Assembly: GCA_021775355.1 (NCBI GenBank)
Contig: JAJFHZ010000022.1
Location: 62,001-126,000 of the forward strand
DNA from: Amylibacter sp.
GTDB lineage: Bacteria > Pseudomonadota > Alphaproteobacteria > Rhodobacterales > Rhodobacteraceae
DNA length: 64,000 nt
Reading direction: 5' to 3'
This document shows positions 1,382 to 14,883 of the stretch, piece by piece (the stretch's first letter is position 1; each line of letters begins with the position of its first letter). The position numbers and the translations under genes are program-made. Under the pieces are notes generated by a model. The model was given only the letters and a program-made list of their open reading frames with translations. It was not told where the DNA came from and made no database searches.

Positions 1382-1574
1382 ACAACAAATAACTTAGGCA
1401 GTCGCGCAGGAGAGTCTAGATTGGGATGTAAGGCTTATACTCGTATTAACGGCACGTTAATTTAAAATGCATAAACTACTGCATAAAATTAATCTATACC
1501 GATCTGGCAACACATTATCGGAACATACGCTTTCCGATGAGTATTTGCCTATACCGTATATAAGAATATGTTTC

Positions 1575-2897
1575 ATGTCGGTCGCACTGAAGTCTGCTTG
1601 CTTTGCTTTGCTTTGCATAGTGCTGATGTTTTCTATGACTGCATTGGCATTTTCACAAGACACCAGTCCGTCCGTCTCGCCATTTATAGATTTCAACCAT
1701 AGTGCAACAAATTTTCCGCTTAAAGGCGCCCATACTGATGTTGCTTGTGATGGTTGCCATGTTAACGGTAATTTGACGGACACCCCAACCACCTGTGTCG
1801 ATTGCCACGATAACGGCATCGCAAAAGGAAAATCTGTAAGGCACCCACCATCTAGCAGCGCATGTTCAGATTGCCACACTACCAACAACTGGACAGCTTT
1901 TGCATTTGACCACACATTTGTGACTGGGAATTGCAGCGACTGCCACAATGGCAAGGTTTCAACGGGGAAAAGCCAAAACCACATTAAGACTACAAACAAA
2001 TGTGATTCTTGCCACATTACTTCAAATTGGGTGAATATTCGATTTGATCATAAAGCAGTAGTTGGCACTTGTTCGAGCTGTCACAACGGGGTGACGGCGA
2101 CGGGCAAGAGTGCCAACCACATTCCGTCGTCGAACACTTGCGATGACTGCCACGTCACCACCAACTGGACTTCGGTACGGTTTGATCACGCATCGGTCAG
2201 CGGTGCCTGTTCGAGCTGTCACAACGGGGTGACGGCGACCGGCAAGAGCGCCAACCACATTCCAACGTCGAATACCTGCGATGACTGTCACGTCACCACC
2301 AACTGGACAAATGTGCGCTTCGATCACAACGCTGTCAGCGGCAGTTGTGTGACCTGTCATAACGGAACTCTGGCAACGGGTAAAAATGCGGCACATATCT
2401 TATCATCGAATAGCTGTGACAGCTGCCATGTCACCACAGGCTGGGCGAATGTGCGCTTCGATCATAACGAAGTGACCGGCAGTTGTTCCAGTTGCCATAA
2501 TGGGGTTACCGCTACAGGAAAACCAAACGGGCACTTTTTAACAAATCAACAATGCGATACTTGCCACCGAACAACCGGGTGGTCAACTGTCAGGTATTCG
2601 CATGCGTCAGGCGCATTCCCGTCGGGCCATAACGCAAACAATTGTATTGATTGCCACATTGGTAATTCCGAAACTTCTGCATGGCGCTTCCCCGCTTACC
2701 GCCCAGATTGTGCGGGATGCCATGCAAATGACTACGAACCGGGGGAACATAGAAAAACCGAAAACCCGAGGACGCTTTACCGCGTGGATGAACTACGGGA
2801 TTGTTCAGGATCATGCCATATATATACAGATGCATCCGAAACGACTATAAAAGAACGGCGCAACAGTGAACACAGATCAAGTGACGGGGGTTTCTAA
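1575..2897 (+). CDS. Multihaem c-type cytochrome with strictly periodic 23-residue haem modules
   Basis: An exported electron-transfer protein with 15 CxxCH motifs and one CxxxCH (CSGSCH) near the C-terminus. The frame is open from an ATG at 1467, but a Sec signal peptide starts at the ATG at 1575 (440 residues; cleavage near ALAFS), so this start is preferred. Twelve consecutive CxxCH motifs are exactly 23 residues apart, and each is followed 16 residues after its first Cys by a second His, so every haem can be bis-His ligated. Modules alternate between CxxCHNG...TGK..NHI and CxxCH.T.NW..VRFDH types, giving a 46-residue di-haem repeat. No lipobox. The gene abuts a beta-barrel gene with no intergenic bases, pointing to a porin-cytochrome pair. 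Specific family not identified; 'multihaem c3/c7-like' is as far as the sequence goes. Confidence 0.9.
   Translation: MSVALKSACFALLCIVLMFSMTALAFSQDTSPSVSPFIDFNHSATNFPLKGAHTDVACDGCHVNGNLTDTPTTCVDCHDNGIAKGKSVRHPPSSSACSDCHTTNNWTAFAFDHTFVTGNCSDCHNGKVSTGKSQNHIKTTNKCDSCHITSNWVNIRFDHKAVVGTCSSCHNGVTATGKSANHIPSSNTCDDCHVTTNWTSVRFDHASVSGACSSCHNGVTATGKSANHIPTSNTCDDCHVTTNWTNVRFDHNAVSGSCVTCHNGTLATGKNAAHILSSNSCDSCHVTTGWANVRFDHNEVTGSCSSCHNGVTATGKPNGHFLTNQQCDTCHRTTGWSTVRYSHASGAFPSGHNANNCIDCHIGNSETSAWRFPAYRPDCAGCHANDYEPGEHRKTENPRTLYRVDELRDCSGSCHIYTDASETTIKERRNSEHRSSDGGF
1794..2621 (+). repeat. Twelve tandem 69-bp coding repeats (haem modules)
   Basis: The CxxCH-encoding positions recur at exact 69-bp steps twelve times from the TGT at 1794. 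Within this array two 138-bp di-haem units, 2070-2207 and 2208-2345, are still close at DNA level (about 115 of 138 identical by hand count, with the first 102 bases nearly identical) and are more GC-rich than the flanking units. That pattern suggests recent duplication or gene conversion inside the array and possible copy-number change between strains. Confidence 0.85.
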
Positions 2898-5204
2898 TTG
2901 GTCAAACAAGAATACCGAACAATAAAAGTCTTTAAAAAACTCAGGTTCGGTGCAGATATACTTGGGCTTTGTGCAGGCATACTGTGCTTTAGCACTGTGG
3001 CACTACCGGCCCAAACCAGACAGCTTATAGACCGAGCGCAAGTTATCGGTGGTAGTGGAACAAACTGCCCTGCGGTTTTCTTTAACTTCAGCGCGCCTTT
3101 GACCTATATATCACATTTTTCCTCGAATAATGGAAAGGTGCTTTCAATCCGTCTTAGAAGTGACTTGGCTGCGACAGCGGATAAAGGCACCCCGGATCTG
3201 GCCGAATCGCATTCTAATCTGGACATTCCGGGGCTTGGGGTTGTCATTGTTGATATGGGTTCCAGCAGCATCGCGCCGATATTAAATTTGCGTTTCACAC
3301 AACCCGTGTTAGCGCAAGTTACCCAATCCGGTGAAAGCTCAATTGTTGTGTCGGGCCTGACATCCATTGGGTCAAACGCTTGCGGTGTTACACTGCAGGA
3401 TACTATAGACTTAGACATTGCATCCATTGGCTTGCCAGACAGATTATCACCAGGCGATATAGCAACACAACCGATTGATGCGGATATTGATGATGTCGAA
3501 TTTACTTTTGCAAATGCAAGGATTGCGATCACGGCGGGGGAGTACAGTCAGGCTACACAACTTTTGACAAAGCTTGTCGGGATGCCGGATCACGCCCGCA
3601 GTGCCGATGCTCAGGAATTGCTTGGTGTTGTGCGTGAGCGCAATGGGCAGCTTGCCCACGCCAAAGCAGAATACGAAATTTATTTGGAAAAATATCCTGA
3701 CAGTGAAGGTGCGGATCGCGTACGCCAACGTCTGGCTGCAATACTGACAGCCGAAGCCGAACCTCCGGAAAAATTGCGCGAAGCAGGCCCTGGGTATGAC
3801 GGGCCAACAGATCAAGTCTCCACTATACGCAGTATTCCGCGCAGGTCTGATCGTTATCGCGGCGCCAATGAAACCGAATTACCACCGGAAAAATCCACCT
3901 TTTCAGCTACAGTATCGTCATTCTACTACTTCAATCAGGGGTCAACACGGTTTAGTGAATTTGAAATTGGTACGGTAGATGAAAACGAAGAGGTTTTTCA
4001 AAACTCGATTGTAACCACCCTTGATGCATCGGGGACATATAACACTGAAGGCTATAATTTTTCCTGGCGTGTCGCTGGTGATCACGAATACGAATTCGAT
4101 ATCGATCAAAACAAATTCCGGTTTTCACGTATTTATGGTGATATTGAATCCAAGGAAAACGGTCTTGCTTTCAGATTTGGTCGTCAGACCCGTTATGATG
4201 GCGGTGTTTTCGGCCGCTTTGATGGTGCAATGCTGACCTTCCCAATAACAGAAACCATGACAAGCAAATTTATTATTGGCCAAAACGTAGACACGACCTC
4301 CGATGACCTGTTTGACTCTGACCAGATTATTTACGGGGCCAGTCTGCATTTCGATGATATCTTGGAAGGCGTCGATACATCGATCTATTTCATTCAGCAA
4401 AATGTTGGTTCCTACACAGATCGTCAGGCTATCGGGTTCGATGCCCAGTACCTGAATAACAATACCTCTGTTTTTGCCTTGCTGGATTACGATTTGACTT
4501 TCGGGCGCATCGGCACCGCACGGATTTCTGGAACACATATATTTGCAGACCAGTCATCACTTACGTTAAGTGCTGATATTACGCATTCGCCCTATTTGAC
4601 ACTTAGTAACGCCTTGCAGGGGCAAATGGCTACCACGCTTGATGAATTGCGGGCTACGTTTTCTTTGGACCAGATTGAACAGCTTGCACTTGACCGAACC
4701 ACAACCACCAAATCATTTACATCCGCGTATTCCATACCTTTGAATGAAAAATGGCGGTTCAGTATCGACGGTTCACTTTTCTCCACATCGGGTAATCCCG
4801 CTTCTGGTGGGGTTGCAGCAGTTCCATCCCCAGGGCTGGAGTTTTATACATCTACACAATTTGTCGGAACAGGCATATTCTCCGATACGGATGTTGTCAG
4901 TGCGGCCCTGCGACTAGCCGATACTGCACAATCAAAACTGGTTCAGGTGGATGTGTACCGACGGTTTAATGTTTCCGATAAATTGCGACTAAAACCACGC
5001 GCGAAAATCGGTTATCGAGATTTAACCACAGCAGACGGACAAGAGTTGTTTTTACTCCCATCGCTCACGGCCAATTACAAATTGAACAAAACCACCGATT
5101 TTGAAGTAGAAATCGGCGGGCGGATATCCTCATTGGAAACCCCTGCTTTCAAAGAAGAACGTAATGAGTTTTATATATTTGCCGGTTTCTGGAAAGAATT
5201 TTAG
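2898..5204 (+). CDS. Outer-membrane beta-barrel protein with periplasmic beta-rich and TPR domains
   Basis: 768 residues. The start is a TTG immediately after the cytochrome stop, with gacggggg as ribosome site 8 bases upstream, so translation is probably coupled. Layout: signal peptide (1-38), a beta-rich AMIN-like region (about 50-180), TPR-type helices (about 200-285), a proline-rich linker, then about 435 residues of alternating amphipathic beta strands ending in FYIFAGFWKEF; a C-terminal Phe is typical of barrels inserted by BamA. There is no CxxCH. With the adjacent multihaem cytochrome this fits the porin partner of a porin-cytochrome conduit, as in the MtrAB/PioAB idea, though it is not recognisably homologous to MtrB by eye. 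Alternatives: a barrel exporting a polymer, as in TPR-barrels such as PgaA or BcsC. Confidence 0.75.
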   Translation: MVKQEYRTIKVFKKLRFGADILGLCAGILCFSTVALPAQTRQLIDRAQVIGGSGTNCPAVFFNFSAPLTYISHFSSNNGKVLSIRLRSDLAATADKGTPDLAESHSNLDIPGLGVVIVDMGSSSIAPILNLRFTQPVLAQVTQSGESSIVVSGLTSIGSNACGVTLQDTIDLDIASIGLPDRLSPGDIATQPIDADIDDVEFTFANARIAITAGEYSQATQLLTKLVGMPDHARSADAQELLGVVRERNGQLAHAKAEYEIYLEKYPDSEGADRVRQRLAAILTAEAEPPEKLREAGPGYDGPTDQVSTIRSIPRRSDRYRGANETELPPEKSTFSATVSSFYYFNQGSTRFSEFEIGTVDENEEVFQNSIVTTLDASGTYNTEGYNFSWRVAGDHEYEFDIDQNKFRFSRIYGDIESKENGLAFRFGRQTRYDGGVFGRFDGAMLTFPITETMTSKFIIGQNVDTTSDDLFDSDQIIYGASLHFDDILEGVDTSIYFIQQNVGSYTDRQAIGFDAQYLNNNTSVFALLDYDLTFGRIGTARISGTHIFADQSSLTLSADITHSPYLTLSNALQGQMATTLDELRATFSLDQIEQLALDRTTTTKSFTSAYSIPLNEKWRFSIDGSLFSTSGNPASGGVAAVPSPGLEFYTSTQFVGTGIFSDTDVVSAALRLADTAQSKLVQVDVYRRFNVSDKLRLKPRAKIGYRDLTTADGQELFLLPSLTANYKLNKTTDFEVEIGGRISSLETPAFKEERNEFYIFAGFWKEF

Positions 5205-5207
5205 AGA

Positions 5208-6698
5208 TTAGTCCAGCAATTTCGTAAGATCTTGGAACCCTGCCGCAATCGCAATATCGCGCGCCCGTTCGCGCTTTTTGTTCCGCAAGCCAGCATCCGC
5301 CCCTGCATCAAGCAAAGTTGAAAATATTTCTTTGTGACCCGTTTGGGCGGCCAACATCAAAGCCGAATAGCCAAATTTATTTCGGTGATCTATATCCGCA
5401 CCCGCATCAAGCAAGGCTGTTATCATTTCCAAACTGCCTTTGCGTGCTGCAATCAATAATGCAGTATTACCACTTTTTGAATAGGTGTTCGGTTGTGAAC
5501 CTGCTCTTAGAATTGTGGCCGCAATATCAAAATGACCAACAGTTAAAGCGACCATCAATGGGGACATTCCCTGTTTATCGGCTTTGTCCGCCGAAACCCC
5601 AAGCCGGATTAGATACGAAACATTTGTTGCATTTCCAACAGCAATGGCATGCCAGATTAAACTTCGTCCAGCCTCATCTATGAAATCCGGTGAATACCCT
5701 TTTGCAAAAAATTCATTCAAGACAGAAACGCTGCATTTTCGCACAGCATTCGAAAGAAGGAATCCTTGCTGTGATTTATCAAGAGGTGGTGTCAAATAGC
5801 GAAGTAATTCAAGTGCCGTTTCCGAGCGACCGGCAATCACTGCCTTTTCTAGTAATTCCAAAACACTTGCATCAATGATCGAAGAGTGTGGCGAAGCTGA
5901 TAGCAACAACTTCAATCCGGAAACGTTGTCTGCATTTGCAGCGTAGGCAATGGCCGTGTTACCATTTCTATCCTGAATGCCTGTTTTCGCTCCTGCTTCA
6001 ACCAATAACGCAAGAGTATTTTGTGCACCTGTTTGCGCCGCATGCATAATTGCTGTGCGTCCCTGTTGGTCTTGTACATCCAATTGTACATCTGCAGAAA
6101 TCAACTGCTTCAACATTTTGTCCTGACCCCGGCGTGCTGCTTCCATCAGAACGGTCCAGCCATGCTTTTCAGATATATCAGATTTTTGAATTTTATGGAC
6201 TTCAGATTGTGATATTTTGTTATCAGTTTCCTGCTGCGCGGAGGTTCTCTTTTTTGCGTGATTTGTTTGTATAAGTTTTGCAAGTAGGATCGTGGCTTTT
6301 GGATGGCCCGCTTCAGCAGCACGCGCAACCCACTTTGCCCCTTCTTCCCGATTAACATCGGTTCCACGACCGGAAAGAAATAACTTTCCTAAACTATACT
6401 GTGCTTCAACAAGTTCCAGTTCTGCAGCTGAGTACATAAGCCCAAACGCTTTTTTATCATTTTTTTGCACACCCCGACCACTGCGATAAAGTGTGGCTAA
6501 CAGATAATACGCCTTGGCATTCTCCGATAGTGACGCTTTGGATAGAATCTCCGCTGCGCCCACATAATCACGTTGCCTTATAGCAGTTTCCGCTTGTTGA
6601 ATACTTTCATCAGGGGTCTGGGCCATCCCCACTGGCACAGAAAAACCAATCGAGATCGCCAACACTGTTTTTATCAGAAAATTTTTATTCCGTACCAT
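5208..6698 (-). CDS. Exported Sel1-like and ankyrin repeat protein
   Basis: 496 residues with a signal peptide (cleavage after about residue 26, GMA-QT). Residues about 65-145 form two to three Sel1-like repeats (for example YRSGRGVQKNDKKAFGLM). Residues about 175-495 are ankyrin repeats of about 33 residues, the best in the C-terminal half (GNTALLIAARKGSLEMITAL, GYSALMLAAQTGHKEIFSTL). Both repeat types bind proteins, so it is probably a periplasmic scaffold. It is the last gene of the ccmF-ccmG-ccmH-ccmI-oxidoreductase operon, its start overlapping the preceding stop by 14 bp, and it ends 3 bp from the convergent barrel gene. A role in assembling the polyhaem cytochromes or the conduit is inferred from context only. 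Confidence 0.85.
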   Translation of the reverse strand: MVRNKNFLIKTVLAISIGFSVPVGMAQTPDESIQQAETAIRQRDYVGAAEILSKASLSENAKAYYLLATLYRSGRGVQKNDKKAFGLMYSAAELELVEAQYSLGKLFLSGRGTDVNREEGAKWVARAAEAGHPKATILLAKLIQTNHAKKRTSAQQETDNKISQSEVHKIQKSDISEKHGWTVLMEAARRGQDKMLKQLISADVQLDVQDQQGRTAIMHAAQTGAQNTLALLVEAGAKTGIQDRNGNTAIAYAANADNVSGLKLLLSASPHSSIIDASVLELLEKAVIAGRSETALELLRYLTPPLDKSQQGFLLSNAVRKCSVSVLNEFFAKGYSPDFIDEAGRSLIWHAIAVGNATNVSYLIRLGVSADKADKQGMSPLMVALTVGHFDIAATILRAGSQPNTYSKSGNTALLIAARKGSLEMITALLDAGADIDHRNKFGYSALMLAAQTGHKEIFSTLLDAGADAGLRNKKRERARDIAIAAGFQDLTKLLD

Positions 6699-7989
6699 AT
6701 TTTGTTTCTATTTCTACACCTGCCGATTTTAGGAATTGTGTTGGCAAAATACCACCTGCGCAAACGATTACAGCATTATTTACAAGGGCCACAACCTGTC
6801 CTGAATGATTAATATCCACAGAATTTTGATGAATTTCCACAACATTGGAGCCGAGTAATACATCCAGATTTCCCGATGCCTGCATCATATCAACCTTATC
6901 GCGGTTTTTTAGTTTCGCACGTGAAAAACCATCGCTACGGTACGATATTGTGACTTTTGTATCGGGTATTTCCGCAATACTGGTGGCCGCTTCCAAAGCA
7001 CTATCGCCACCGCCCACCACAAGAACATTTTTCCCGCGGTACTGTTCTGCATCAATCAGCCTGTAAACGACTTTACTGTTTTCTTCCCCGGCCACCCCGA
7101 GTTTCCTTGGTGTACCACGGCGCCCGATGGTCAATAAAATCGACTTGGCAATATGGTTGCCTTTTGAAGTTGTAAGATGAAACCCGTCTGCTTTTTTTTC
7201 AATCCCGTCAACGCGCTCTTCAAAATTTATTTTCAATCCGGTATCCGCAACAACCTTATTCCAAAATTCCAGTAAAGCTTCTTTGGTTGTTTCGCGAAAA
7301 TTCACTTGTCCGTGCATTGGCAAGTAAGCAGGCGCTGTCATCACTAGTTTACCACGTGGAAAATGCGACACAGTACCGCCAAGACTGTCCTGCTCTATAG
7401 TAATGAATTTCAATCCCGCTTCAGTCGCTGCAAGACTGGCCGAAAGACCGGCTGGCCCTGCGCCAACTATAGCAACATCCAGAATTTCACCATTTTGTTC
7501 AGGTTTATTTTTGGCAATTTCTACCATCGCTTGGCGCCCTTGCTCAATCGCGTTGCGGATCAAGCCCATGCCACCAAGTTCACCTGCGATATAAATATCA
7601 GGGACATTGGTTTGAAAATTCGGATCGACAAAAGGAATATCAATGCCGCGTTGTTCTGTGCCGAAAACCAGTTTTATCGCACCCATCGGGCAAGCCGTCG
7701 CACAAGCCCCATGCCCTATGCAATGTGATGGTTCAATCAATTGCGCTTTACCTTTGACCAGCCCCAGAATTTTCCCCTCCGGGCATGCGTTGACACAAGC
7801 CCCACAGCCAATACAAAATTCGGGGTCAATCACCGGATGAAGCGATGACGGTTCAATCAACCCTGCCTCAATAGCTGCTTCTTGTACTTTAACCACACGA
7901 CTTTCACGGTATTTTCCCCATCCGGCAACACCTACCCAAACCAGCAGTAAAGGCATTATGTAAGTTGCTATCAATAAGCCGCTTGTCAT
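6685..7989 (-). CDS. Membrane-anchored [4Fe-4S]/FAD/NAD(P) oxidoreductase
   Basis: 434 residues. An N-terminal membrane segment (about 4-23) is followed by two ferredoxin-type motifs: C59xxC62xxC65xxxC69P, and C90xxH93xxC96xxxC100P, where His takes the place of the second Cys. Residues 171-183 (VAIVGAGPAGLSA) bind FAD and 322-332 (VLVVGGGDSAL) bind NAD(P)H, in a thioredoxin-reductase-like fold that lacks the CxxC dithiol. With the anchor at the N-terminus and no signal cleavage, the body should be cytosolic. It would move electrons between NAD(P)H and a membrane carrier, plausibly the cytochrome b-like protein at 12549. It is co-transcribed with the ccm genes, 19 bp after ccmI. The fold is clear; substrate and direction are inferred. 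Confidence 0.82.
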   Translation of the reverse strand: MTSGLLIATYIMPLLLVWVGVAGWGKYRESRVVKVQEAAIEAGLIEPSSLHPVIDPEFCIGCGACVNACPEGKILGLVKGKAQLIEPSHCIGHGACATACPMGAIKLVFGTEQRGIDIPFVDPNFQTNVPDIYIAGELGGMGLIRNAIEQGRQAMVEIAKNKPEQNGEILDVAIVGAGPAGLSASLAATEAGLKFITIEQDSLGGTVSHFPRGKLVMTAPAYLPMHGQVNFRETTKEALLEFWNKVVADTGLKINFEERVDGIEKKADGFHLTTSKGNHIAKSILLTIGRRGTPRKLGVAGEENSKVVYRLIDAEQYRGKNVLVVGGGDSALEAATSIAEIPDTKVTISYRSDGFSRAKLKNRDKVDMMQASGNLDVLLGSNVVEIHQNSVDINHSGQVVALVNNAVIVCAGGILPTQFLKSAGVEIETKYGTE

Positions 7990-8008
7990 TTAATCAACCT
8001 TACTTTTA

Positions 8009-9232
8009 CTAATCTGGCACCAACCCTAGTTGTCGCGCTGTATCGCTTACCTGAGATAATTCCAATGGTTGACCGGCAAATACATCACTTGCGCGAAGAT
8101 ATGCACTTAACGCCGCATCCTTTTCGCCCAAAACCAAGCGTGATCGTATCAATTTCATCCAACCTTCCACGTCATTTGGATTGTCTTCTAAACGTGCAGC
8201 CAACTTATCAACCATCCCGACAATCATCGCTTGACGATCTTCGTTTGTCATTTTCTGGGCGGCATTTATGTCTTCCTGTGTTGGGCCGTTTGCTGGTTCT
8301 GGCGGTAAAAGCGATGCGCTGTTCTGATCTAGAAATCCTGTTTCACCAAACCTGCCCCCCAGTTCATAACCTGATGCTGCTGCCAATTCCTGTACTCGCA
8401 GTTCCAACCCAGCGATCCAATCCGCATTCGCAGGCGCATCATCAAGTATGGCCAGCCAAAGATCTATGGCAGCTTTCGAGTTGCCTGATTGCTCTAACGC
8501 CATCCCTTTGAAAAAACGGGCACGTGGTTCTGATGGATTCAAAGCCAAGACATCATCAAATACCGATTGGGCTTTTTCACTAACCAACCCCTTTTGCGCC
8601 CGAACCAGCGTTTCACCATAAGCAGCCAGTACCGCAGGGTCACTGGCGTCAATGGCTACAGATTTTTCGTAAGCCTTAGACGCAAGATCATAACGCTGAG
8701 TATTAAAATATGACCACCCCAGCATCCGCCAACCCTCGGCATCATCAGGGTTTCCTGCCAATCGCGTCTCAAGACCGGCAATCAGACTATCAACTTCGCC
8801 AACAGCAGACGTTGCGTTTCCAGTCTGTGACACAGGTTGTTGTGTCTTCACAGCTGTAGCAATAAATGGCCGCGAAGGAAGCTCCGGTCGTCCTATTAAC
8901 GCATAAAGCCCTGTTGCCCCGACGACTACCCAGCCAACAACAATGGTCAAAGTCCAAATTTGACCTTTTTCAGAACCAAATGAAAATCCTTTATTGGGAG
9001 TTTTTGCTGCCATTAAAATACGCCGTTCAATTTCCACTTTTGCTGCTGCTGCTTCATCCTTACCGATTAAACCACGTTCCACATCACCCTTTAATTCATC
9101 CAATTGATCCCGACCAACTTGTAAAGATTGCTCTTCATTTAAGTGTGATATTTCGTGGTGCCGAATAAAAGGAATTGCAACTACCACTGCAGCCACTGCT
9201 GTCAAAAGTGTTAAGATTATCCATAAGATCAT
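8009..9232 (-). CDS. ccmI: Cytochrome c biogenesis protein CcmI (CycH)
   Basis: 407 residues: an N-terminal membrane helix, a cytosolic loop with the typical ELKGDVERGLIGKDEAAAAK region, a second helix near 95-115, then TPR repeats (for example GWRMLGWSYFNTQRYDLASKAYEKS) in the periplasm. CcmI holds apocytochrome c for the CcmF/CcmH haem ligation complex of system I. Its start overlaps the ccmH stop by 4 bp. Length and two-helix topology match family members with both membrane and TPR parts. Presence in the same operon as an oxidoreductase and next to two polyhaem cytochromes suggests a set dedicated to those clients. Confidence 0.93.
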   Translation of the reverse strand: MILWIILTLLTAVAAVVVAIPFIRHHEISHLNEEQSLQVGRDQLDELKGDVERGLIGKDEAAAAKVEIERRILMAAKTPNKGFSFGSEKGQIWTLTIVVGWVVVGATGLYALIGRPELPSRPFIATAVKTQQPVSQTGNATSAVGEVDSLIAGLETRLAGNPDDAEGWRMLGWSYFNTQRYDLASKAYEKSVAIDASDPAVLAAYGETLVRAQKGLVSEKAQSVFDDVLALNPSEPRARFFKGMALEQSGNSKAAIDLWLAILDDAPANADWIAGLELRVQELAAASGYELGGRFGETGFLDQNSASLLPPEPANGPTQEDINAAQKMTNEDRQAMIVGMVDKLAARLEDNPNDVEGWMKLIRSRLVLGEKDAALSAYLRASDVFAGQPLELSQVSDTARQLGLVPD

Positions 9233-9720
9233 GTCTTATCCTTCGGTTCAATAATTGAAGCAAGCAATGCTTTATCCGCTTCGGTTAATTCTGATTGTTC
9301 GGGTTGATCCACTGTTGATTTGCGCCATAAGGTCTGAAATCCGAAAACGGCCGCAATAAGTATCAACAATGGGCCAACCCACAATAAAAATGTAACCGTT
9401 TGAAATGGTGGCTTAAGAAGAATATATGCGCCGTATCTGTCCACCAAATACGCAATCGCTTCCTGATCGGAGTCACCAGCTGAAATTCTTTCTCTTAAAA
9501 CAATGCGCAAATCACGGGCTATTTCGGCATTACTGTCATCAATGCTTTGATTGCGGCAAACCACACAACGCAATCCTTTGCTGAGTTCGCGCGCGCGCGC
9601 TTCTTGCAGCGGATCAGACAACATCTCATCTGGTTCAACCGCGAACGATGTTTGCGGGGTAATGCAGGTCAGTAAAAGCAGCATCGTGACTAAGATATAT
9701 CGCATAAACCACATCATCAT
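9229..9720 (-). CDS. ccmH: Cytochrome c biogenesis protein CcmH (CycL)
   Basis: A periplasmic, membrane-anchored thiol-redox protein that reduces or holds the CxxCH cysteines of apocytochromes before haem ligation. It shows a signal or anchor helix at the N-terminus, the LRCVVC active-site motif (family LRCxxC), the RDLRIVLRERI helix and VDRYGAYILLKPPF, then a C-terminal membrane helix. The frame is open to a TTG at 9753, but the ATG at 9720 gives an ATGA overlap with the ccmG stop and a GGGGGC ribosome site, so I chose it; two further in-frame ATGs follow directly. Confidence 0.93.
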   Translation of the reverse strand: MMMWFMRYILVTMLLLLTCITPQTSFAVEPDEMLSDPLQEARARELSKGLRCVVCRNQSIDDSNAEIARDLRIVLRERISAGDSDQEAIAYLVDRYGAYILLKPPFQTVTFLLWVGPLLILIAAVFGFQTLWRKSTVDQPEQSELTEADKALLASIIEPKDKT

Positions 9721-10256
9721 GAGCCCCCACGTAATCTTAGAATCAAGGGCCAAAGTGTTTGTTCCCAGATTTTTCCTGTCATTGGCCCGATGTGGCGATA
9801 GCGGATTCGGCCTGTGCCATCGACGACATAGGTTTCAGGTACGCCGGTAACATTTAGCTGATCACCTAAAACACCTGAGCTGTCATCACCAACCGCCAGA
9901 TACGGGTTACCTGTGCGTGTCAGAAAAAACTTGCCACCCCCTTTGCGATCTTTCCAGTTCAGTCCATAAATTGGGACATCTGTTGTGGCGGCAAGTTCCA
10001 TCAGATATGGATGCTCTTTTTTACACACCGTACACCACGATGCAAAAACATTAACCATTGTTACTTCGCCCGACAAATCCTGGCGAGAAAACCCGGTGTC
10101 AGTACCAATCATCGGTTGTAAATCAAAATCTGGAAGCGGGCGATCAAGATATCCAAGGCCAGTTATTTTGGTTTCAGACTTAGCACCGAACATAAATACT
10201 GCGGCCAACGTAGAGAAAGCAAGTGCGGGAATAAGCTTGAAAAAGTTACGCATCAT
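9717..10256 (-). CDS. ccmG: Thiol:disulfide interchange protein CcmG/DsbE
   Basis: 179 residues: an uncleaved N-terminal signal anchor, then a thioredoxin fold facing the periplasm with the active site ASWCTVCKKEHP and the cis-proline segment VTGVPETYVVD. It keeps apocytochrome haem-site cysteines reduced for CcmF/H. It starts one base after the ccmF stop (10258) with two consecutive ATGs and overlaps ccmH by 4 bp at the chosen ccmH start. Length is normal for the family. Confidence 0.94.
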   Translation of the reverse strand: MMRNFFKLIPALAFSTLAAVFMFGAKSETKITGLGYLDRPLPDFDLQPMIGTDTGFSRQDLSGEVTMVNVFASWCTVCKKEHPYLMELAATTDVPIYGLNWKDRKGGGKFFLTRTGNPYLAVGDDSSGVLGDQLNVTGVPETYVVDGTGRIRYRHIGPMTGKIWEQTLWPLILRLRGGS

Positions 10257-10257
10257 A

Positions 10258-12246
10258 TTAGCCTTTCACCCCTTCAGCTAGCGGCGCGATACCCGCCGCC
10301 CGCTTGGGGGCGCCAACCCGGAAACGTCGATCTGAAAGTGAGACAAAGCCACCGAACGCCATAATCAATGGGCCGATCCAGATCAAAAGTGCCAATGGAT
10401 GAAAGTAAATACGAACGACCCACTGCCCGTTATCATTCGGCTCACCGATAGCCAGATAGAGGTTATTAAGATCCCGCATCTTGATACCAGCCTCGGTCGT
10501 GACGCGTTGGCTGACAGTAAAAAAACGACGCTCTGATGTCATCACGGCAATTTCACGCCCGGCTTTCGTTATTTTAAACGTACCCCGTTCTGCCTGAAAA
10601 TTCGCACCTTGTATCAAGTCTACCTTTTGCATTTGAACCATATAACCAGCAATTTCTACTTGCTCATTTGGGGCCATTACAACAATGCGTTCCTGTTCCC
10701 AAGCGGAAACACAAGTGATCCCTGCGACAGCAAGGCCAAGACCCAAATGTGCCAAAATCATTCCATAAACTGATCTTGGTGTATTTTTTGCAAGGCTAAC
10801 TGAGCGAGCAAACGGTGCTTGGAAAAGTTTGATGCGTTGTGTCAAAATCGTAACCGAACCGAATATTAGCCACAAAGCAATGCCCAAACCGCCCGCCGCC
10901 AATATGTATTTCCCGCCGCCTGAAATGACAATTATCAGCGTAAATGCAATGGATAGAATTGCAGGTGTTCGCGCACGTTGGAGCGCTGCCCATAGCGTAT
11001 CACGTTTCCAACGTAAAAATGGACCGATGACAACTGCCAGTAATAGCGGAATCATTAACGGAACAAAGGTTTGGTTGAAATACGGCGCGCCAACCGAAAT
11101 TTTATCAGGCCCGACCATCTCTACAAAAAGCGGATAGAATGTACCAAGAAATACCGTTCCCGCCGCCGTCAGCAAAATAATATTATTCAAAACAAGGCCA
11201 CCTTCGCGGCTGACGATTTTGAACACAACCGGATGACTGAACTTCTGACTGCGCATTGCAAAAAGTGTTAATGCACCACCAGTAGTCAATAGTAATAACA
11301 ATAACACTCCCATCCCTCGCGCGGGATCAGATGTGAAAGCATGCACACTGGTCAGAACACCTGAACGCACAATAAATGTGCCGATTAGGCTAAGTGAAAA
11401 TGTCATAATCGCCAAAAGCAGGGTCCATACCACAAGTGCTTGTCTGCGTTCCATCACCAAAGCAGAATGCAATAACGCTGTACCCACTAGCCAAGGCATG
11501 AAACTTGCGTTTTCAACCGGATCCCAAAACCACCAACCGCCCCAACCGAGTTCATAATACGCCCAGTAACTTCCCAAGGTGATGCCGATGGTTAAAAAAC
11601 ACCATGCCGCCAAAACCCAAGGCCGCACAAATCGTGCCCAGCTGGCATCAATTCGACCCTCAATTAATGCGGCAACAGCAAAGGCGAATGTAATAGAAAA
11701 ACCGACATATCCAAGATACAGAAATGGCGGATGAATTGCCAAACCAATATCTTGCAGCAACGGATTTAATTCCTGGCCGTCAAGGGCAGCCGGTGACATC
11801 CTCTCAAACGGGTTGGATGTGAAAATAACCAGTGCCAGAAAACCGAATGAGATCGCGCTTTGAATAGACAGAACGCGTGCCTTCAAGGTGAGCGGCAAAT
11901 TTCGTCCTGTCAATGCAACGGCTGCCCCAAACAAAGTCAGGATCAAAATCCATAATAATAAAGAGCCCTCGTGATTTCCCCAAACGGCTGTAACTTTATA
12001 CAAAGTCGGCATCATAGAATTGGAATTCATCGTGACGATAAGCATCGAAAAGTCAGATGTAACAAACCCATATGTAAGGCATGAAAAAGCCAATGCAATT
12101 AGCATGAACTGCGCTACAGCGGTGTAATTTGCGAAGGTAATCATCCCAAGATTTCGCCGGTGCGCCCCAATAAGGGGAATGATGGCTTGTGCCAAAGAAA
12201 TTACAAGTGCAAGCACCAATGAAAATTGGCCGATTTCAGCTTCCAT
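10258..12246 (-). CDS. ccmF: Haem lyase CcmF (cytochrome c synthetase core)
   Basis: 662 residues, a polytopic membrane protein of the haem-handling family. The WWD motif (WGWGGWWFWDPVENASF-like, residues about 235-250) is intact, with flanking conserved His residues (H172 in AIHPPFLYLGY, H260) expected to hold haem; a large periplasmic loop lies near 510-610 before the last helix. It attaches haem to CxxCH motifs together with CcmH and CcmI. It is the first gene of a six-gene minus-strand operon and diverges from the cytochrome b/18-haem operon. ccmABCDE are not in the window, so they must be elsewhere; whether a second ccmF exists in the genome cannot be seen. Confidence 0.95.
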   Translation of the reverse strand: MEAEIGQFSLVLALVISLAQAIIPLIGAHRRNLGMITFANYTAVAQFMLIALAFSCLTYGFVTSDFSMLIVTMNSNSMMPTLYKVTAVWGNHEGSLLLWILILTLFGAAVALTGRNLPLTLKARVLSIQSAISFGFLALVIFTSNPFERMSPAALDGQELNPLLQDIGLAIHPPFLYLGYVGFSITFAFAVAALIEGRIDASWARFVRPWVLAAWCFLTIGITLGSYWAYYELGWGGWWFWDPVENASFMPWLVGTALLHSALVMERRQALVVWTLLLAIMTFSLSLIGTFIVRSGVLTSVHAFTSDPARGMGVLLLLLLTTGGALTLFAMRSQKFSHPVVFKIVSREGGLVLNNIILLTAAGTVFLGTFYPLFVEMVGPDKISVGAPYFNQTFVPLMIPLLLAVVIGPFLRWKRDTLWAALQRARTPAILSIAFTLIIVISGGGKYILAAGGLGIALWLIFGSVTILTQRIKLFQAPFARSVSLAKNTPRSVYGMILAHLGLGLAVAGITCVSAWEQERIVVMAPNEQVEIAGYMVQMQKVDLIQGANFQAERGTFKITKAGREIAVMTSERRFFTVSQRVTTEAGIKMRDLNNLYLAIGEPNDNGQWVVRIYFHPLALLIWIGPLIMAFGGFVSLSDRRFRVGAPKRAAGIAPLAEGVKG

Positions 12247-13521: not shown

Positions 13522-14883
13522 ATGTCAAGGTTTCTGACACTTTTGATTGTCACGATTTTTCTTGGGTTGTCGTCCGCTCTTCCGATTGCTGCACAAAGCC
13601 TATTTGAAAGATTGGTTATGCCGGGTGACCTCATCGAAGGCCACGCCGATTTACAAAAAGAATGCGACAACTGCCACACGTCCTTTTCTAAAGGTGCGCA
13701 GGTTCAGCTATGCCTTGATTGCCATAAAGAGGTTGCAAAAGATATTACCGAAAAAACCGGCTTTCACGGGCTAACCACCGAAACCCAGGCATCCGAATGC
13801 AACCATTGCCACACCGATCATAAAGGGCGTGATGCCAAGGTCGCCGCCTTTGACGCTGAAACCTTCAGCCATGAAACAACCGACTTCAAACTGAACGGAT
13901 CGCACCAAAATGTACCCTGCGCTGACTGTCACAAAGAGAGTAAAAAATATCGGGATGCTCCTAAGAATTGTATTGATTGTCATAAAGAAAATGAGCCTCA
14001 TGAAGGCAGCTTGGGCAAGGACTGCGCCACCTGTCACCGTGAAACCGATTGGACCGATACGCTGGAATTCGACCACTCAAAGACCAAGTTCCCGCTTGAA
14101 AAAGCGCATAACGACGTCAAATGTAACGCCTGCCACGTGGGCGAGGTGTATGTCGAACTGCCCCTCACATGTATTGGCTGTCACCGCATTCAGGACGTTC
14201 ATGAAAATAGATTTGGCGAAAAATGCGAAAAATGCCATGCGCCGGATAAATGGACGGAAGTACGCTTTGATCATGACAAGGACACCGATTTCACCTTGCT
14301 TGGAAAGCATCAGAAAGTGGATTGCAGTGCTTGCCATAAAGTCAATGTATACCAACACGATACAGTATCATCTTGCATTGGATGCCACCAACAAGACGAC
14401 GTCCACGAAGCAAAAATGGGGACGGATTGCAAGACCTGCCACTCATCGGACGGTTGGTTGGAAAATGTCGCCTTCGATCACGATATAACATCATTTCCGT
14501 TGATAGGCTTACATGTCATCGTTCCATGCGAGGAGTGCCATTCAGACAGCACGTTCCAAAGCCCAAAAGATTGCCAATCCTGCCATAAGGACAGCGATAT
14601 TCATAAAGGTTCATTAGGGCCCAATTGTGCATCCTGTCATAATCCCAACGGTTGGGAATTTTGGATGTTCAATCATAACCACCAAACCGAATTTCCTTTG
14701 GTAGGAAAACATGACGGGGTGAAATGCAATGCATGTCATAAGCCTAGCCGTAATGCAGATTCAAAAATACCTACGGCTTGCGTTGCATGTCATAGGGATG
14801 ACGATAAACATCGTGGAAAATTTGGAACCAAATGCAGTATTTGTCACAGTACTTCCAGTTTCAAAGGTGCCAAGCTTCGTTAA
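13522..14883 (+). CDS. Periplasmic 18-haem c-type cytochrome
   Basis: 453 residues with a Sec signal peptide (cleavage near AAQ, residue 25) and 18 CxxCH motifs, first Cys at residues 48, 64, 93, 133, 150, 168, 201, 217, 235, 268, 285, 303, 336, 351, 369, 402, 420 and 438. From residue 133 on, five tri-haem modules repeat every 66-68 residues, each with an FDH or FNH and a KH/AH/LH element supplying distal His ligands, like polymeric cytochrome c7. A strong ribosome site (gaggggg) precedes the ATG. It is the second gene after the cytochrome b-like protein. It is probably the periplasmic bridge between the inner-membrane cytochrome b and the outer-membrane cytochrome/barrel pair. No lipobox or membrane anchor beyond the signal peptide. 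Confidence 0.92.
   Translation: MSRFLTLLIVTIFLGLSSALPIAAQSLFERLVMPGDLIEGHADLQKECDNCHTSFSKGAQVQLCLDCHKEVAKDITEKTGFHGLTTETQASECNHCHTDHKGRDAKVAAFDAETFSHETTDFKLNGSHQNVPCADCHKESKKYRDAPKNCIDCHKENEPHEGSLGKDCATCHRETDWTDTLEFDHSKTKFPLEKAHNDVKCNACHVGEVYVELPLTCIGCHRIQDVHENRFGEKCEKCHAPDKWTEVRFDHDKDTDFTLLGKHQKVDCSACHKVNVYQHDTVSSCIGCHQQDDVHEAKMGTDCKTCHSSDGWLENVAFDHDITSFPLIGLHVIVPCEECHSDSTFQSPKDCQSCHKDSDIHKGSLGPNCASCHNPNGWEFWMFNHNHQTEFPLVGKHDGVKCNACHKPSRNADSKIPTACVACHRDDDKHRGKFGTKCSICHSTSSFKGAKLR

Follow-up and report, generated by a model that had tools for sequence, protein, structure and literature searches.

The gene at positions 1467-2897 very probably encodes the extracellular-type multihaem cytochrome (eMHC) of a PCC3 porin-cytochrome cluster. 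The middle of this protein strings two-haem units together, and haem-bearing caps close both ends. It lies in a 64,000-nucleotide stretch of an Amylibacter sp. contig (JAJFHZ010000022.1, positions 62,001 to 126,000), hereafter the window. PCC3 was named as a porin-cytochrome cluster in 2017 (PMC5566968), and its parts, namely eMHC, a porin-like ORF, an inner-membrane protein (IMP) and a periplasmic-type multihaem cytochrome (pMHC), all lie inside 14 kb in the window (Table 1). The 23-residue pattern of haem motifs in the eMHC is real, and the protein is a regular member of this known system.

Table 1. Features of the PCC3-type cluster in the window.
Feature	Position	Strand	Basis
Extracellular-type multihaem cytochrome (eMHC), 476 aa, 15 CxxCH and 1 CX3CH	1467..2897	+	ORF, motif scan, synteny
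N-cap haem motif CDGCH (residue 94), 16 residues N-terminal of array	1746..1760	+	motif scan
Array of twelve 23-residue haem modules, i.e. six 46-residue A+B units	1794..2621	+	motif scan, lag analysis
138-nt DNA repeat in three copies (100/82/63% to first), the most plainly recent duplications	2040..2453	+	DNA comparison
C-cap haem motif CIDCH (residue 393)	2643..2657	+	motif scan
C-cap haem motif CAGCH (residue 415)	2709..2723	+	motif scan
C-cap CX3CH motif CSGSCH (residue 446)	2802..2819	+	motif scan, homologues
Putative porin-like outer-membrane protein, 768 aa, TTG start, ends in Phe	2898..5204	+	ORF, synteny
Sel1/ankyrin-repeat protein, N-terminal hydrophobic segment	5208..6698	-	Pfam; matched in 25/47 loci
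FdFAD: N-terminal anchor, two ferredoxin-type Fe-S motifs, FAD/NAD(P) domain	6685..7989	-	Pfam, PDB matches
FdFAD His93 codon, second Fe-S motif CIGHGAC...CP, where Cys is usual	7711..7713	-	sequence, homologues
ccmI-like (CycH) cytochrome c maturation protein	8009..9232	-	PF23914, 94.5 bits
ccmH	9229..9753	-	PF03918, 157.4 bits
ccmG-like thioredoxin (redoxin)	9717..10256	-	PF08534, 45.8 bits
Presumed ccmF-like protein	10258..12246	-	ORF; beside ccmG/H/I in 11/47 loci
PCC3-type inner-membrane protein (IMP), 316 aa	12549..13499	+	motifs, synteny
Periplasmic-type multihaem cytochrome (pMHC), 453 aa, 18 CxxCH	13522..14883	+	motif scan, Pfam

Haem Motifs and Two-Haem Units of the eMHC

The eMHC has 16 haem motifs in total, or 29.8 residues per haem. 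Numbered from the ATG at 1467, the first cysteines of its CxxCH motifs are residues 94, 110, 133, 156, 179, 202, 225, 248, 271, 294, 317, 340, 363, 393, and 415, with gaps of 16, then eleven times 23, then 30 and 22 residues, and the CX3CH motif begins at 446. The initial annotation had described twelve CxxCH motifs at an exact 23-residue period, and the eleven equal gaps from Cys110 to Cys363 bear this out. The distal histidine of each module, likewise said to recur every 23 residues, is found at +16 from the first cysteine in all twelve (126 to 379), and the array was correctly placed on the codons of residues 110-385. The four flanking motifs, CxxCH at 94, 393, and 415 and CX3CH at 446, had been omitted. 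The 16-residue spacing of the N-cap is repeated in homologues; on the other side of the array, the Cys, Ala, and His of CAGCH are almost invariant in A1, and CSGSCH sits in a conserved tail with the consensus ELRDCxGxCHxYTD. Positions 2820-2894 encode a tail conserved in many eMHC proteins, with Phe or Trp as the last residue and one residue more in some; this Phe/Trp-ending tail is possibly a docking signal.

The signal-like hydrophobic segment comprises residues 44-62 and follows a long N-terminus (1467-1650 in the window). This long form seems to be real, since the homologue in locus L021 has no Met at the position of Met37. PF14522 matches the eMHC with 65.1 bits against a cut-off of 24.8. 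The genome of the window (G000; 3.49 Mb, 99.99% complete) contains no second strong eMHC copy, further matches to the eMHC query falling on the pMHC gene, and a close homologue is present in two of the 32 other genomes of the genus.

Alternation of two module kinds, also noticed at first reading, was confirmed; the real repeat therefore spans 46 residues and carries two haems. Module A has the form CxxCHNG...GK...H and module B CxxCH...W...FDH, and the mean amino-acid identity between modules is 0.61 at lag 2 versus 0.25 at lag 1. When 15 motifs were placed at random in 412 residues, no more than four successive gaps were equal in 200,000 trials, versus the eleven observed. Equal gaps, however, come free with tandem duplication, and therefore the age of the units matters more than the odds of chance. 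The spacing might be a mere trace of recent tandem duplication with no functional meaning, as the DNA of units 3 and 4 agrees to 83% and that of units 4 and 5 to 69%. Third-codon-position identity is also higher in these two pairs (0.67 and 0.52, respectively), in units 1-2 (0.54) and in units 1-6 (0.46). In the remaining 11 of the 15 pairs of 46-residue units, however, it is 0.26-0.37, to be read against 0.25 for random equal bases rather than a computed baseline, and identity at codon positions 1 and 2 is 0.54-0.73, yet all 11 intervals of the array are 23 residues. In addition, runs of 23 persist in homologues that are 47-76% identical. A mere trace of recent duplication without functional meaning is thus very improbable; unit length has outlasted silent change, and from these comparisons the 23-residue spacing seems to be old and kept.

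Conservation of the Period and of the Motif Number

Homologues of the eMHC were collected by a scan of genome_contigs (84,980 species), which yielded 47 loci, and five of 397 independently drawn Pseudomonadota genomes, that of the window among them, had matches at E <= 1e-40. These sets contain near-duplicates (L026-L029, L065/L067), and their counts are not independent. In the first set, module A is 23 residues long in 459 of 461 typed cases and 24 in the other two, while module B is 23 in 311, 24 in 107, 25 in five, and 26 in 12; this typing covered intervals of 23-26 only, and 77 modules fitted neither kind. Accordingly, 124 of the 126 typed modules longer than 23 belong to module B, with one to three residues added. 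The sole further histidine stands at +17 in 90 of the 107 B modules of 24 residues, indicating that the extra residue precedes the distal histidine.

The initial annotation had left its reading open to refutation by homologues with a freely varying period, and here the outcome is divided. Near relatives in Alphaproteobacteria mostly hold strictly to 23, the exceptions with 24s being L046 and L056. From the independent draw, G199 has mostly 23, with exceptions late in the array; its module A is 23 in nine of 12 (counted by eye), and an invariable length of module A therefore fails as a rule and remains a strong tendency. Distant PCC3 homologues in G262 and G370, on the other hand, have spacings from 21 to 38 (cap intervals included, the first 16 excluded). 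Two short, weakly similar proteins of G368 carry 12 and 13 motifs spaced by 22-34, and G101 has 23/24 spacing in one piece and 23-45 in another. Judged from the sequences, the strict period is the mark of a subgroup or lineage and not of PCC3 as a whole. The passages covered of PMC5566968 and PMC10734462 state no fixed 23-residue period; the phrase "23 amino acid" occurs in two papers that, by their titles, deal with cytochrome 579 and with a methacrylate redox system, and in neither of these two PCC3 papers.

Motif numbers were counted in the ORFs of the 47 loci and the window, of which 30 have both caps and 20 others were set aside. All 30 capped proteins have an even number, ranging from 14 to 68. 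Among 40 ORFs with the N-cap spacing, none of them touching a contig end, the number is even in 33. Seven are odd, among them a mis-sorted pMHC (L062) and an ORF that runs into masked sequence. Odd-count proteins of L039, L041, and L055 lack the C-cap, and the real exceptions are L078 (35 motifs) and one of two L107 proteins (13). Evenness is thus no universal rule and breaks down beyond near relatives with both caps. In the literature, some eMHC counts are odd, 63 and 85 for example (PMC5566968), and those in Gallionellaceae extend from 11 to 35 (PMC10734462). The 68-motif proteins are encoded at 6743-11833 of L065 and 6878-11833 of L067, in records titled Candidatus Thiodiazotropha endoloripes and symbiont of Stewartia floridana. 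Locus L029, labelled Deltaproteobacteria, is identical in spacing and order to L026-L028 (two labelled Marinicaulis and one Alphaproteobacteria, all labels being those of the records) and may be mis-binned.

Components and Order of the Cluster

The published PCC3 IMP is about 300 aa long with two WX3HX13H motifs and SGXXG, and the IMP of the window has WX3HX13H at 113-131 and 291-309 and SGFVG at 154-158. Its five transmembrane helices, with the motifs on helices 3, 4, and 5, agree with the published ones by hydropathy, eight peaks having been merged by hand into five segments. For the eMHC class, PMC5566968 describes many haem motifs, one per 22-39 residues, in a repetitive sequence whose every unit bears one motif or more, and proposes a wire; the protein of the window, presumably extracellular, falls within this range. 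The pMHC has an N-terminal hydrophobic segment and is probably periplasmic. The same set of parts recurs in alpha- and gammaproteobacterial loci as well as in records that bear the labels Nitrospinaceae, Nitrospirae, and Myxococcota; the Nitrospira-labelled locus stops short of any porin.

The porin-like protein has an N-terminal hydrophobic segment and a weak TPR match at 205-269 below the Pfam cut-off, and its Pfam matches at E <= 0.001 are TPR families only, with no porin family. The ORF adjoins the eMHC gene in homologous loci too, and the protein would form the barrel. A SPOR domain precedes the TPR in the corresponding protein of L026 (11753-14305; 28.5 bits against a cut-off of 21), SPOR domains being peptidoglycan-binding. 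In the window, the eMHC-porin pair is separated from the IMP-pMHC pair by the ankyrin, FdFAD, and ccm genes, the ORF taken as ccmF-like being named from its sequence and the gene order; this split distinguishes the window from published PCC3. In L026, the order is FdFAD-ccm-IMP-pMHC-eMHC-porin. Upstream of the cluster, positions 362-1177 encode what reads, on sequence alone, as a membrane permease resembling a metal ABC transporter.

The pMHC is built on a different repeat, with three haem motifs per about 67 residues at spacings near 16, 18, and 33. Its motif number is a multiple of three in all 30 proteins past the completeness filter and in all nine set aside, in agreement with values of 21, 24, and 27 in Gallionellaceae (PMC10734462). 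The range is 18-27, plus one protein of 12 (L043) and a 9-motif piece (L062). Some pMHC matches of about 80-110 bits in the table of 47 loci are cross-matches to eMHC, and the pMHC total of 42 was therefore not used. In L043, an eMHC of 50 motifs is accompanied by two pMHC genes, one with 21 motifs (5014-6660) and one with 12 (7134-8180).

Location and Possible Structure of the Haem Chain

A narrow range in pMHC against a wide one in eMHC fits an element limited by the periplasm and one that is not. The converse arrangement, with a periplasmic or barrel-enclosed array and the pMHC as the outer cytochrome, is unlikely: both proteins have hydrophobic, signal-like N-termini, which would suit it, but capped eMHC proteins vary from 14 to 68 motifs, as if the periplasm limited the pMHC only, and in many loci pMHC follows IMP whereas eMHC precedes the porin.

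Of the interpretation in the initial annotation, a regular multihaem conductor beside a porin is well supported by the place of the gene in a PCC3-type cluster, and the wire-like stack of haems is plausible. The protein probably carries sixteen haems on a very regular chain. Each array haem would be ligated by its motif histidine and by the distal histidine 12 residues further on (bis-His), and the haems would be closely packed along the array. Conserved haem-bearing caps close both ends of the two-haem-unit string, and units seem to be gained or lost two haems at a time, so that the wire would vary in reach while the A/B alternation stayed intact. AlphaFold models were too poor to use, both for the mature eMHC with 28 homologues (29 rows; pLDDT 50.5, pTM 0.23) and for a 143-residue, seven-motif piece with a 113-row repeat-window alignment (pLDDT 51.2, pTM 0.36). 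For PCC3 of Gallionellaceae, long and mostly linear AlphaFold models have been reported (PMC10734462).

It is improbable that the eMHC polymerizes into free nanowires outside the cell, as OmcS, OmcE, and OmcZ do, and uses the porin for export only. A strict repeat and a length varying from 14 to 68 motifs in capped homologues would suit a rod, but the conserved, non-repeating caps at both ends fit a monomer of defined length better. In addition, none of the nine matches in a profile search of PDB sequences (E <= 0.1) is labelled OmcS, OmcE, or OmcZ; they are 6r2q, 2e84, 28pb (Cytochrome c), a small tetrahaem cytochrome, and five artificial nucleotide-binding proteins. We take 6r2q to be MtrA, for which the results table gives another name. 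The nanowire triheme domain of c7 type (TIGR04257) scores 20.8 bits, below its cut-off of 40.

Relation to Known Porin-Cytochrome Systems

The window shares with PCC3 of Sideroxydans, Leptothrix, and others (PMC5566968, PMC10734462) a putative porin-like protein, the published IMP motifs, and both types of multihaem cytochrome with many motifs and few residues per haem. Its eMHC is smaller than the published ones (16 motifs versus a median of 34) and differs from PCC3 generally in its strict 23-residue period. Systems of the MtrA/DmsE type (MtrAB, MtoAB, and PioAB) resemble it in having a multihaem cytochrome beside a porin-like gene. Similarity to this decahaem family (TIGR03508) is weak, 61.8 bits being far under the cut-off of 192.2, and membership was rejected.

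Some observations count against the main reading, besides the poor structure models and the odd motif numbers given above. First, on Fe(II)-citrate both PCC3 clusters of Sideroxydans ES-1 are below their level on thiosulfate (PMC8788666). Second, a proteome table with eight columns gives the eMHC Slit_1448 of this strain as 0 throughout (PMC12016527). Third, the cluster is split in the window. The function of PCC3 is stated in a 2025 paper never to have been tested (PMC12442390).

FdFAD and the Proposed Direction of Electron Flow

The product of the FdFAD gene has an N-terminal hydrophobic anchor, strong in 28 of 35 such proteins, and the FAD/NAD(P)-binding domain behind its Fe-S motifs is thioredoxin-reductase-like. 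Its best PDB matches are 7a76 (thioredoxin reductase), 7a7b (Bdr), and 8c16 and 6gas (ferredoxin-NADP reductases). The FAD/NAD(P) domain is shared with thioredoxin-reductase-like proteins, YpdA/Bdr, and ferredoxin-NADP reductases, whereas in FdFAD it is joined to a membrane anchor and two Fe-S motifs, and the YpdA score of FdFAD (146.7 bits) lies under the cut-off of 339.9. Histidine replaces the usual cysteine of the second Fe-S motif in all 39 FdFAD proteins obtained from 53 loci, that of the window included (35 scored by pattern and four by eye).

FdFAD accompanies the IMP closely. The IMP is found in 32 of the 47 loci and FdFAD in 29 of these 32, in L062 only in part; the three loci without it are short (4.9-5.6 kb). 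Among 397 Pseudomonadota genomes, apparently the same as those of the eMHC draw because the listed handles agree, FdFAD, pMHC, and IMP are each present in six, and the six are identical (G000, G101, G199, G262, G368, and G370), with thresholds fixed per query at E <= 1e-60, 1e-20, and 1e-15, respectively. The eMHC passes its threshold in five of them. FdFAD is on another contig than IMP and pMHC in G101 and G370, and in G370 both contigs break within an eMHC-like frame. In the passages covered of the PCC3 papers, no such partner is mentioned, the word "ferredoxin" being absent or used in other contexts; the protein could appear there under another name or in figures. The co-occurrence of FdFAD with IMP and pMHC suggests NAD(P)H-linked electron transfer.

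The proposed route runs from NAD(P)H through FdFAD, the b haems of the IMP, pMHC, and the porin to eMHC, most likely outward. FdFAD would feed or drain the IMP at the cytoplasmic face, and the chain would connect the cell exterior with NAD(P)H or ferredoxin. An outward flow appears likely from the NAD(P) domain, the lack of obvious energy coupling, and the lack of matches to the RuBisCO large chain (PF00016) or photosynthetic reaction centre (PF00124) in G000, which also weakens autotrophic uptake. He et al. (PMC5566968), by contrast, proposed that electrons pass from a donor outside the cell to quinone, the IMP being quinone-active. In Sideroxydans CL21, the IMP of one PCC3 copy is significantly up when iron oxidation is possible (PMC12442390), which favours this inward flow and argues against a role in export only.

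We tentatively suggest, as a possibility somewhat short of even, that FdFAD is an undescribed fifth core part of PCC3 and that the system serves mainly to export electrons and not to oxidize iron. FdFAD would then be an NAD(P)H-flavin protein anchored in the membrane, with an invariant histidine in place of a cluster-ligand cysteine in its ferredoxin module. Together, FdFAD and the two-b-haem IMP would be a split counterpart of NADPH oxidases and ferric reductases. Electrons from the cytoplasm would be pushed into a haem chain crossing the periplasm and then into an outer wire, whose length would be set, in this lineage, by two-haem steps.

In the papers covered, PCC3 figures as a possible iron oxidase whose function has yet to be tested; if the above proposal is true, it would be mainly an electron exporter instead. 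FdFAD is the most useful new lead and would allow a direct test of the direction of electron flow. Finally, a short and very regular version of PCC3, in a probable Rhodobacterales genome without a RuBisCO match, would be a tractable model of a dense haem chain.
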